46,432 bases of DNA, taken from Bacteroidota bacterium (GTDB taxonomy: Bacteria > Bacteroidota > Bacteroidia > Chitinophagales > Chitinophagaceae). Positions 19,355 through 23,296 of this stretch are shown here, piece by piece (position 1 is the stretch's first letter; the number at the start of each line of letters is the position of its first letter). The translations under genes and the position numbers were made by a program. The stretch spans positions 1 to 46,432 of the forward strand of contig JAUZOE010000032.1 in the NCBI GenBank assembly GCA_030706605.1, given 5' to 3'. The notes below the pieces were generated by a model that had not been told where the DNA came from, searched no databases, and worked only from the letters and a program-made list of their open reading frames with translations.

Positions 19355-22300
19355 CTACATATTTCTCCTATATTGCCCACCTACCTCATAGAGGGCATGA
19401 GTAATTTGCCCAAGCGAACAATACTTTACTGTTTCCATTAATTCAGCAAATAAGTTTTCATTATTGACAGCTACATCCTGCAGGCGTTTCAACATTTGAT
19501 CACTTTTATCTATATGCAGCCTATGGAATGCCTGTAGATTTTTTATCTGCTGATCTTTTTCTTCTTTGGTACTTCTGATCACTTCTGCAGGAAGAATAGT
19601 TGGCGAACCTTCTTTATTTAAGAAAGTATTTACACCAACAATTGGAAGTTCGCCATTGTTTTTTAAAGATTCATAATAAAGGCTTTCTTCCTGTATCTTA
19701 TTTCTCTGGTACATCCTTTCCATCGCACCAAGTACGCCACCTCTTTCTGAAATACGGTTGAATTCCGCCATCACCGCTTCTTCTACCAAATCAGTAAGTT
19801 CTTCAATTAAAAAACTTCCCTGGTTTGGATTTTCATTTTTTGCTGTTCCCAATTCACGATTAATGATTAACTGAATGGCCATTGCCCGGCGCACGCTTTC
19901 CTCTGTTGGCGTGGTGATCGCTTCATCATAAGCGTTGGTATGAAGGCTGTTGCAATTATCATAGATCGCGTACAAGGCCTGTAAAGTTGTACGAATATCA
20001 TTGAAATCAATTTCCTGGGCGTGCAAACTTCTGCCGCTTGTCTGGATATGATACTTCAACATTTGGGAACGGGAATTCGCTTTGTATTTATACTTCATTG
20101 CTTTTGCCCAAATACGCCGTGCAACTCTTCCGATAACACTGTATTCAGGATCCATTCCATTGCTGAAAAAGAAAGAAAGATTGTGCGCAAAATCATCAAT
20201 CTTCATTCCGCGGCTTATGTAATATTCTACATAGGTGAACCCGTTTGAAAGAGTGAAAGCAAGCTGCGTAATAGGATTGGCGCCCGCTTCCGCAATATGA
20301 TAGCCGCTTATGGAAACAGAATAAAAATTGCGTACTTTATTTTCAATAAAATATTCCTGCACATCACCCATTAATTTCAAAGCAAATTCTGTAGAAAAAA
20401 TACAGGTATTTTGTGCCTGGTCTTCCTTTAAAATATCAGCCTGAACGGTTCCTCGAACAGATGCTAATGTTTTGGCTTTAATTTCCTCATAGACTTCTCT
20501 GTCTAAAACATCTTCGCCCGATAGACCCAATAATCTTAAACCAAGTCCATCATTTCCTTTTGGCAGATGCCCTTTCATTTCTCCTTTTTCGTGCAAAACG
20601 GCTTCGCCATTTATTCCGATGTATTTAGGCAAATCTTCCGGTTTAAATTTTGATTCTATAACTGCGTTTACGCGTTCCCGTAAGTTATTCTCAAGAATGT
20701 ATTTTTCGCACTGCTGATCAATGGCGGCATTCAAAAAGAAAGCAAGCAACATCGGCGCAGGACCGTTAATCGTCATACTTACAGAAGTTTTGACATCGCA
20801 AAGGTCAAAGCCGCTGTACAGCTTTTTTGCATCGTCCACCGATGCAACACTCACACCACTATTGCCGACTTTCCCATAAATATCAGGACGAACAGCAGGA
20901 TCTTCACCGTACAAAGTAACGCTGTCAAATGCAGTACTGAGACGCTTTGCAGGCTGCCCAACACTCACATAATGAAACCTGCGATTGGTTCTTTCCGGAC
21001 TTCCTTCGCCGGCAAACATTCTCGTAGGATCCTCTTCCACACGCTTTAACGGAAACACGCCGGCTGTATAAGGAAATTTGCCAGGGAAATTTTCCTGCAA
21101 ACGCCACATTAAAATATCTCCCCAATCTTTAAATTTCGGTACGGCTATTTTCGGCACTTTGGTGCGCGAGAGCGATTCAAAAAACAAAGGCTGTTTTATC
21201 ACTTTTCCTCTTACGTGGTATTCAAAAAAATCCTTCTGATAAAGGGCTTTTGTTTTTTCCCATTCATCCAATAATTTTTTACAAACGGGTAATAATTTTT
21301 TTTCAACTTCGACTTTCCTCTTCTCCAGTTCGTTTATAAGTAAAGCGTTTTTTTCTTCCTTTTCTTCAGATATCACTTTAAAATTTTCAATCGTGCCATT
21401 CAACTGATACAACTGAGTAGCAACAGCAGATTGCTCTTCAGCCAGTTTATTATAATTAGCGATTTCTTCTGCAATTTCAGCAAGATATCTCACGCGCTTT
21501 GCAGGAATGATGGAGCGGTTATAACTTTCACTTCGCAAAGGCGCTTCATATTTTTTCCACCCACGGCCGGTTTTAGAATTTACTTCTTCTATAATTTTAT
21601 TAAAAAGCAGGTTGCATCCGGGATCATTAAAAGTAGAAGCTACAGTACCAATCACAGGAATTTCCTCATCTTTAGAATGCCACAAACCATGATTGCGTTT
21701 GTATTGTTTTTTTACATCATGAAGGGCATCCAAAGCGCCTGCTTTATCAAATTTATTGATACAAATTATATCTGCATAATCAAGCATATTGATCTTCTCT
21801 AATTGAGAAGCAGCGCCATATTCAGGCGTCATCACATACATACTCACATCACAATAATCCAGGATAGATGCATCACTCTGGCCCACACCTGCGCTTTCTA
21901 AAATAATAAAATCATAACCAGCCGCTTTGCAAATATCAAGCGCTTCCTGAACGTAATTACTGAGGGCCTTATCATTTTCGCGTGTCGCTAATGAACGCAT
22001 ATATGCGCGAGGATTGTGAATGGAATTCATACGAATACGATCACCTAATAAAGCTCCCCCCGTTTTTTTTCTTGAGGGGTCAACAGAAATAACGGCAATC
22101 GTTTTATCCTCATAAGTTTTTAGAAAGCGACGCACAATTTCATCCGTTACAGAAGATTTCCCTGCTCCTCCTGTGCCGGTAATGCCAAGAACTGCCGCCT
22201 CCCAACCCCCTCCAAGGGAGGGGGAGGTGAGAACTCCTTCACGATTTTCAGATTCCTTTCCGGCTTCAACTTGCGGTGATTTAAAATCTTTTTCCTTTTC

Positions 22301-23296
22301 AAGAAGATTAAAAATTTCTTTGCAAACCTTATCTGAATCCTTTAAAATTTCTTCATTTTTAAATCTCAACACTTCAAAACCCAATTCATTTAATCTTGAT
22401 GTCCGTATTTCATCATTTTCTTTTACTTCCGGAAGTTGATGAATATTGCCATCAATTTCAATAACTACTCCTTTTTGTAAACAAACAAAATCAGCAATGT
22501 ATTTATCAATGATATGCTGCCGCCTGAATTTAAATCCTTCTTTTCGTCCTCTCAATCTTTCCCATAGCATCTTTTCTGCTTTGGTTGGATTACCTTTTTG
22601 ATCTAACGCAAATGCTTTTAAATTTTTATAATAATAAGGATCAGCATTAAGATAATCTTTTATTTGAGGAGATCTTTTGTTTTCTTCTTTTAACCTCTCA
22701 GAATTAGAATTTAAAATTTCCACTTCCTCGCCATTCTCAGCTTTAGTAATTGATTTAGCGACAAGACTAATATCTCTCCATTCCTCCAAAATAAATCTAC
22801 CTCCATTATTTCCATTGCCATTTCTTGCAGAAGTTGAGGTTGTTGTCCCCCCTCCTTTGGAGGGGGTTAGGGGGGGGGCGCTTTTTTCAATCACTTCTTC
22901 AATCATCCCTTCCAGCCCCATTTTTCTCCCATCATCAGGAGAATAAATTTTGGTAATTCCGTAAGCTTCCAGTTCTTCAATTTCTTCAGGCAAAATCGTT
23001 CCGCCGCCGCCGCCAAAAATTTTGATATGCCCATAACCATTCTTATCAAGCAGATCTTTCATGTATTTAAAAAATTCCAAATGGCCACCCTGGTAACTCG
23101 TAATTGCAATACCTTGTGCATCCTCTTCAATAGCGCATTCTACAATTTCATGTACACTTCTGTTGTGACCTAAATGAATAATTTCAGCACCTTGGCTTTG
23201 CATTATTCTACGCATAATATTAATGGCAGCATCATGACCATCAAATAATGAAGCGGCAGTAACAATTCTTACAGTATGATTTTTATTGTCGGGCAT
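19355..23296 (-). CDS. icmF: Fused isobutyryl-CoA mutase IcmF with an inserted DUF559 domain
   Basis: The 1313-residue protein has all parts of IcmF: a B12-binding domain (about 8-138, LFDGHDAA with H21 as the probable cobalt ligand, [11 protein letters not shown]), a MeaI-like G-protein chaperone domain starting with the P-loop [12 protein letters not shown] at 371-382, and a C-terminal acyl-CoA mutase barrel ([33 protein letters not shown]). It interconverts isobutyryl- and n-butyryl-CoA or related acyl-CoAs with adenosylcobalamin. Usual IcmF proteins are about 1090-1150 residues. The excess lies between the first two domains, where residues 222-332 form a DUF559 nuclease-like domain ([20 protein letters not shown] and [11 protein letters not shown]). 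Proline/glycine segments [10 protein letters not shown] (141-150) and SPSLGGGW (358-365) bracket this insertion and are encoded by inverted DNA repeats. All frames remain open, so the enzyme may still be made. Confidence 0.93.
22201..22224 (+). repeat. Left copy of the 24-bp G/C-rich inverted repeat bracketing the DUF559 insertion
   Basis: This copy begins CCCAACCCCCTCC and is itself nearly palindromic, able to fold on its own (CCCCCTCC pairing with GGGAGGGGG). On the icmF strand it encodes the segment SPSLGGGW just before the G domain. It differs from the reverse complement of the right copy at two positions. Confidence 0.75.
22848..22871 (-). repeat. Right copy of the 24-bp G/C-rich inverted repeat, with an adjoining run of nine Gs
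   Basis: Read on the minus strand it begins CCTAACCCCCTCCAAAGG and encodes LTPSKGGG right after the B12 domain. It runs into nine consecutive Gs at 22870-22878 (C9 in the coding strand). Loss of a single C there would put a TAA in frame directly after the tract. Confidence 0.75.

Follow-up and report, generated by a model that had tools for sequence, protein, structure and literature searches.

The 46,432-nucleotide contig JAUZOE010000032.1 of a Bacteroidota bacterium from the Chitinophagaceae (assembly GCA_030706605.1), which constitutes the window analyzed here, encodes the fused isobutyryl-CoA mutase IcmF with a DUF559 nuclease domain inserted in frame. This insert is probably a mobile protein-coding element, composed of a DUF559/EDxHD nuclease with palindromic ends, that is not spliced out and spreads in the manner of a homing element. 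The direct evidence consists of in-frame insertion, a patchy distribution among relatives, same-site transfer between species, the occupation of many host proteins, a conserved active site, palindromic ends in inverted orientation, and solo palindromes; from these we infer retention in the protein, cutting of the empty allele, and repair by copying. Below, G000 denotes the genome of the studied stretch (the window is contig G000:C26), and other G numbers denote its relatives.

Layout of the Insert in IcmF

The host gene encodes 1313 amino acids in a single open frame that runs through the insert, and was identified by the NCBIfam family NF045497 with 1718.5 bits (curated cut-off 1500). Pfam domains comprise the B12-binding, MeaB, and mutase parts expected of the enzyme and, between the first two, DUF559 (residues 226–332, E 5.9e-31), confirming the sequence-only reading of this locus in its claim of a complete domain with the frame preserved. 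In comparison with the solved IcmF 4xc6, 222 residues (145–366) replace 46. The type VI secretion system IcmF was also considered and ruled out, as the domains and the curated family identify the gene as isobutyryl-CoA mutase. The features, all on the minus strand, are the following:

19355–23296, minus: icmF host gene (profile matches, continuous frame)
22958–23269, minus: host B12-binding domain, residues 10–113 (domain scan)
22848–22877, minus: N-side palindromic end, coding, inverted relative to the C-side end (repeat comparison)
22697–22804, minus: native host linker helix, about residues 165–200 (present in empty icmF genes too)
22301–22621, minus: DUF559 (PF04480) nuclease domain, residues 226–332, with the E-D-H-D residues present
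22195–22224, minus: C-side palindromic end, coding, immediately ahead of the G-domain (repeat comparison)
21554–22201, minus: host MeaB-type G-domain, residues 366–581 (domain scan)
19358–21376, minus: host linker and mutase part, residues 641–1313 (domain scan)

The G/C-rich 24-bp inverted repeats noticed earlier (22201–22224 and 22848–22871) are identical at 22 of 24 bases, and the longer arms (22195–22224 and 22848–22877) at 26 of 30. When the 1.1-kb region was subjected to 200 dinucleotide shuffles, the highest count attained by any 24-nt inverted repeat was 19 matches, and none reached 22. Taken singly, each arm is also palindromic, its 8-bp stem closed by a 3-nt loop. The proposal that everything between the repeats was inserted holds for the foreign DUF559 domain and fails for about residues 165–200: as had been suspected, this is native linker, its helix being found in empty icmF genes too.

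Occupied and Empty Sites among Close Relatives

Matches to icmF from 59 genomes, including G000, run unbroken across the insert in at least six cases, and the other complete matches among those listed stop near residue 200 and resume near residue 366. The alignment with close relatives proposed to reveal an empty site gave a clear result: the site could be read in 18 of the 20 genomes of the genus (that of the window included), and is occupied in five (G000, G018, G009, G010, and G015) and empty in 13. This alternation of occupied and empty sites among close relatives argues that the insert in icmF is not an old fusion. The native helix (EWRDI..AxSITxAENG) is kept in empty genes, and stands between the N-side repeat and DUF559 in occupied ones.

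Some empty genes carry short G/C-rich stretches. In the sister of G000 (G006) and in G019, GGCCTCCCCC is still present at the N-side position; G002 keeps a remnant of the right end, and G007 a weaker one. These remnants are suggestive only as possible scars of loss, and because of those in G006, G019, and G002 losses of the insert seem to happen. A second DUF559 site, within the mutase part of IcmF, was observed in distant Bacteroidota (L194 by Pfam; L185 and L229 by motif).

Insert and Host Have Separate Histories

The icmF host tree, calculated with the insert removed, contains 34 rows (10 occupied, 24 empty) and requires seven changes of occupancy. The genus is represented in it by 13 rows, which are united in a clade with a Shimodaira–Hasegawa-like approximate likelihood ratio test (SH-aLRT) support of 100, and G072 and G165, which belong to another genus, are placed far off. 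In the tree of DUF559 sequences, G000 and G018 instead pair with G072 and G165 (bootstrap/SH-aLRT 99/98), and G009, G010, and G015 group with other genera (95/96). In the approximately unbiased (AU) test, the insert rejects a tree that keeps the genus as a clade (p-AU 1.95e-7; 2.6e-7 with the icmF rows alone), and the host gene rejects one that unites G000, G018, G072, and G165, a grouping chosen after seeing the tree (p-AU 3.5e-62, with L031_G033 left out of the host test).

Sequence identities to G000 follow the same division. G009, G010, and G015 are closer than G072 and G165 in the N-terminal domain (86% vs. 76–77%), the G-domain (76–78% vs. 63–64%), and the mutase (83–84% vs. 79–80%), whereas in the insert they are more distant (55–58% vs. 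67%). Between G000 and its nearest occupied relative, G018, silent divergence is 0.21 in the insert and 0.49 in the host domains: DUF559 with its right end differs at 20 of 97 silent sites and the three host domains taken together at 327 of 673 (Fisher's exact test, 1.1e-7), the linker is intermediate with 14 of 43, and the 137-codon window with the lowest silent divergence in the whole gene is residues 247–383. Because the two trees conflict and silent divergence is lower in the insert, the data indicate that DUF559 and its right end passed between icmF genes at one site after the hosts had split, as in homing. Alternatively, the two icmF subclades could stem from related elements that were inserted separately at this site, a scenario that likewise needs mobility.

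A domain fusion of old date, passed on vertically with many later losses, would fit the grouping of the icmF linker inserts as one clade among the DUF559 copies (SH-aLRT 96; 88/92 in the icmF insert tree), the apparent losses, and three pairs among G009, G010, and G015 in which a drop of silent divergence in the insert was looked for and not found, insert and host diverging equally. It is at odds with the mutual rejection of insert and host trees, with an insert divergence between G000 and G018 of less than half that of the host domains, and with the joining of the domain to 27 unrelated protein families (below), and we consider it improbable. The mobility proposed from the sequence is supported by the patchy sites, an insert history separate from that of the host, and in-frame kin in unrelated genes.

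The Insert Occurs in Many Host Proteins

Within the family, 76 of 147 genomes have DUF559; for the phylum the figure is 170 of 296, and the best 150 rows of the phylum search include, by our own count, 42 copies in frames of at least 370 amino acids. We read 60 large-frame loci of the family and 80 named loci (80 of 579 confirmed relatives, among the matches listed), and also fetched 40 small-frame matches. After removal of hidden Markov model matches below 85 positions and of identical copies, 184 of 212 copies were left, and 135 of these share their frame with 180 or more additional residues; embedded copies number 135 by this length rule and 136 by motif labels. At least 60 residues lie on both sides of the domain in 125 of the 136.

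Host labels follow our own motif rules, and 30 host proteins were verified by scanning against curated families. They comprise 27 families fused in frame with DUF559: IcmF, LeuRS, MetG, MetH, CinA, adenine deaminase, AroC, ArgB, HisA, RecG, IleRS, ValRS, RecJ, UvrA, RdgB, Acs, a LegC-type aminotransferase, WecB, a GHMP kinase, a nucleotidyltransferase, HsdR, GcpE, an Aldedh/MaoC protein, GH31, CoA-transferase III, guanylate kinase, and MazG. The domain is internal in 22 of them. In ArgB, HisA, the GHMP kinase, the nucleotidyltransferase, and guanylate kinase it is N-terminal, and these may therefore be plain fusions. Named isolates carry the insert in MetH (Flavobacterium frigidimaris DSM 15937 and Winogradskyella sediminis DSM 28134) and in RecG (Flavobacterium difficile KDG-16 and Aequorivita todarodis); it is therefore not an artefact of metagenome assembly.

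Phylogenetic analysis of 183 DUF559 copies over 119 columns (L124_822 was left out) gave a weakly resolved tree, in which 124 of the 135 embedded copies fall into one clade of 133 (SH-aLRT 96) with hosts mixed within it. A subclade of 14 rows (SH-aLRT 97) mixes CinA, MetG, adenine deaminase, and MetH. The tree requires 55 changes of host, compared with a minimum possible of 36 and 127.7 in shuffles, and copies thus cluster by host, imperfectly. The flanks of five of the 48 standalone copies matched a host from our own set, each on one side, and no clear broken insertion was seen.

Several loci depart from the simple arrangement. Two DUF559 inserts occupy different sites of one gene in L067 and L070 (LeuRS) and L211 (MetH), and two stand in a single 1267-amino-acid frame of G018 (C11:14745–16208). 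A type I restriction HsdR (L066:2306–6445) combines GIY-YIG with an inserted DUF559, giving two homing-type nuclease domains in one protein. The N-terminal ArgB fusions of four genomes (L094, L098, L107, and L116) form a clade of their own (SH-aLRT 96), close to standalone copies.

An Essential Enzyme Seems to Tolerate the Insert

At the first LeuRS site, 15 of the 30 loci read are occupied and 15 empty. At the empty site, GAEIxF and VYTTRPDT are joined by a turn, which is short in 13 loci and longer in two; in occupied genes the insert stands in place of this turn. No target-site duplication was seen by eye at this site, the turn being replaced and not cleanly split. On the DUF559 tree, this LeuRS site requires 10 changes, two of which are forced by well-supported branches. 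An empty LeuRS copy was sought in 20 genomes with LeuRS inserts (assemblies 72–100% complete) and found in none of the 20: every LeuRS match above the curated cut-off sits in an occupied frame, with two occupied pieces in G031 and a split frame in G151. As no empty copy was found beside the occupied ones, LeuRS seems to work with the insert, unless the insert is removed by an unseen process.

The Nuclease Domain Is Conserved

Four residues, E71, D73, H77, and D86 (alignment numbering), do not vary in 25 chosen copies or in a set of 48, the latter found with patterns that contain part of the E-D-H-D motif. Of the embedded copies, 134 of 136 carry the motif ExDGxxH, as do 181 of 184 copies overall. 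The conserved E, D, H, and D would correspond to the EDxHD active-site set, in our own reading of the family name. A structural model of the window's DUF559 (predicted local distance difference test score 83.8) was matched by Foldseek to 3hrl (E 1.6e-6), to I-Bth0305I (3r3p; E 2.6e-4, template modeling score on the target 0.70), and weakly to Vsr (1vsr; 0.057), and comparison of the DUF559 profile with solved structures gave 3hrl (E 1.2e-29) and 3r3p (E 3.6e-7). The modeled fold is accordingly placed nearest to the DUF559 protein 3HRL and the EDxHD homing endonuclease I-Bth0305I.

The ratio of nonsynonymous to silent substitution rates in DUF559 is 0.06–0.14 in four of five icmF pairs, the fifth being saturated at silent sites, which points to purifying selection on the domain in icmF. 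Such selection would also fit domestication, with DUF559 serving a useful purpose in every host enzyme; the hosts, however, share little in function and close relatives have the enzyme without DUF559, and we regard this as the remotest of prospects. As the first methionine after the N-side repeat in the window's frame falls inside DUF559, an internal ATG is unlikely to yield a free nuclease, and the fusion protein itself would have to act.

Palindromic Ends and Solo Palindromes

Our hairpin rule (G/C-rich hairpins within 250 nt) was positive on the left in 78 and on the right in 88 of 136 embedded copies, compared with 44 of 358 control pieces. For the 48 standalone copies the counts are 25 and 27. 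Paired ends had a mean score of 8.5 in inverted orientation, 3.2 in direct orientation, and 2.1 between elements, and 87 of 600 between-element draws reached the within-element median. The ends are thereby recognized as terminal inverted repeats: the inverted comparison beats the direct one in 45 of the 60 two-ended copies, with nine ties and six in the opposite sense. A typical end reads AGCCTCCCCCTAACCCCCTCC-NNN-GGAGGGGG, and the 3-base loops often agree (by eye).

A long exact end pattern was found in none of 147 genomes, being too strict, and looser palindromes were used instead. Strict palindromes number two sites in G000, 19 in G009, and 12 each in G015 and G127, with 0–1 in the reversed control, and are absent in six of 18 genomes. 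In G009 no excess over DUF559 ends is evident, the 19 sites and nine DUF559 matches amounting to about two per copy, and its icmF has a third palindrome directly ahead of DUF559. Three of the 18 palindrome loci that we read have DUF559, and four of the other 15 are clearly within a gene and in frame (L356, L365, L368, and L372). The GcvT of G072 has a solo in-frame SPSSGGGRGEAEA at a loop that is shorter in six homologues, the RecQ of G127 has a solo in-frame TSPPAPLQRRGGQ.. that is not in the solved RecQ, and a further one lies in a LeuRS piece of G015. One locus of G072 (L368:3–3017) encodes a long repeat-rich protein, Rhs/YD-like by eye, with three PSxGGxGG-type palindrome-like peptides in one frame.

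The alternative, raised from the sequence alone, of two insertions in icmF is favored by these solo in-frame palindromes: since native linker parts it from DUF559, the N-side repeat is probably a separate solo palindrome insert, making two insertions likely.

Palindromes of this kind could also mean that the ends and another enzyme move the coding insert, with DUF559 a passenger or of cellular use. Nuclease-free palindromes in frame in GcvT, RecQ, and the LeuRS piece speak for this, as do palindromes in genomes without a full DUF559 copy (G016, two sites and no DUF559 match; G006, three sites and one weak match of 29.7 bits). Against it stand the near-universal ExDGxxH motif of the embedded copies, the purifying selection on DUF559 in icmF, and the nature of the unit that moved between icmF genes, namely DUF559 with its right end. 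We judge movement by the ends rather unlikely, if worth keeping in mind.

Splicing Tests and Comparison with Known Systems

Like inteins, the insert occupies enzymes that the cell cannot do without, and might for this reason be thought to be removed at expression by splicing or ribosome bypass (intein, intron, or byp-like). Yet no Hint domain was detected at E 0.1 with Pfam in icmF, LeuRS, MetG, MetH, RecG, IleRS, AroC, CinA, ValRS, or RecJ, nor in 20 further hosts at E 1e-8 or 1e-10 among the matches listed; no Rfam match was obtained in the window at gathering scores, which addresses introns; the frames are open and continuous; and the insert lies in a linker in icmF and at a turn in LeuRS, both of them tolerant positions. 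We therefore hold removal to be very improbable.

According to PMC9403480, the EDxHD family includes a DUF559 gene. Homing nucleases are described in a review (PMC3943268) as residing in introns, inteins, or free-standing frames, and association with self-splicing sequences as freeing them to invade highly conserved sequences. In two further sources, the in-frame palindromes of Rickettsia in coding genes are compatible with enzyme activity (PMC6649704), and a role in mismatch repair is proposed for the Caulobacter VsrA (PMC12907096).

The element shares its catalytic domain with EDxHD homing endonucleases such as I-Bth0305I; unlike known homing nucleases, its domain would stay inside unrelated host proteins, and it has palindromic ends. 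With inteins it has in common insertion in frame, patchiness among relatives, residence in essential enzymes, and a homing-type nuclease, and it differs from them in that no splicing domain was found, in that the icmF and LeuRS sites are tolerant loops, and in possible scars on loss. Like the Rickettsia palindromic elements, it places palindromes in frame in conserved genes (GcvT and RecQ), presumably without removal, but a nuclease-bearing form coexists with the solo palindromes, and the comparison with Rickettsia is one of published description. We know of no nuclease in the Rickettsia elements, and of no enzyme for coding palindromes. REP (repetitive extragenic palindromic) sequences are dispersed G/C-rich hairpins paired with DNA-cutting REP-associated tyrosine transposases (RAYTs). 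The combination of such hairpins with a DNA-cutting enzyme recurs here; in contrast to REP/RAYT, however, icmF has no Y1 transposase domain (Pfam, E 0.1), and the ends are inverted repeats lying in frame inside genes. The free-standing DUF559/Vsr-like endonucleases (3HRL and VsrA) have the same domain and are not inserts. A literature search that covered few subscription papers turned up no account of DUF559 inserts within host proteins, and to our knowledge no unspliced in-frame element with a homing-type nuclease has been described.

Proposed Mechanism and Implications

We propose that the element sits in host loops or inter-domain linkers (judged against empty genes for icmF and LeuRS, and by eye elsewhere), where its palindromic inverted ends encode Pro/Gly/Ser-rich linkers. 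The insert would be translated as part of the host enzyme, without splicing; the nuclease made within that enzyme would cut insert-free alleles of the same gene, and repair would copy the insert into the cut allele, the same-site transfer between species being seen in the trees. Rarer events would reach new genes, perhaps via the palindromic ends, and solo palindromes without a nuclease would be non-autonomous relatives.

A number of observations weigh against this proposal, in addition to the three icmF pairs without a drop in silent divergence. Hairpins were found on both sides in only 60 of the 136 embedded copies, standalone copies are flanked as well (both sides in 19 of 48), and the insert-bearing G018, G093, and G032 are without any perfect palindrome. 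Most solo palindromes read are not clearly placed inside a gene (at gene edges, intergenic, or ambiguous). The embedded set was chosen by shared frame and gives no rate of out-of-frame insertion. The closest DUF559 pair in different hosts is only 75% identical, so that jumps to new genes are old, or rare relative to same-site transfer. In G000 itself the icmF copy is the only DUF559 of the genome, with no other repeat-flanked DUF559 frame, and the two icmF arms are its only full palindrome copies. Absence of the repeats elsewhere, named in advance as a sign of an old fusion, thus applies to G000, but relatives carry up to 19 palindrome sites.

Whether these inserts constitute a new class of Bacteroidota mobile elements, unspliced "protein insertion elements" that home within essential enzymes by their own nuclease and have non-autonomous relatives in solo coding palindromes, we regard as evenly balanced. 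If so, the role of homing endonuclease would fall to the host enzyme, and a mechanism would be at hand for the spread of coding palindromes, which become linked to a nuclease. A homing-type nuclease persists, apparently unspliced, in the LeuRS of 20 genomes and in 27 families. The inserts mark natural insertion-tolerant sites in essential enzymes, and insert-bearing proteins may be mistaken for odd fusions.

Viral, Plasmid, and Unusually Labeled Records

Carriage by phages or plasmids was considered and rejected: relatives occur in 2 of 50,697 phage and 38 of 72,556 plasmid records, each below 60% identity. In 80 viral loci we counted 82 DUF559 matches, six of them in frames of at least 260 amino acids. 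An insert-bearing MetH on a contig labeled Candidatus Nitrotoga (L215) falls within Bacteroidota MetH, and the contig is probably mis-binned. A viral-catalogue contig (L239) carries a frame that is ValRS-like by eye with a DUF559 insert, and is probably cellular DNA.

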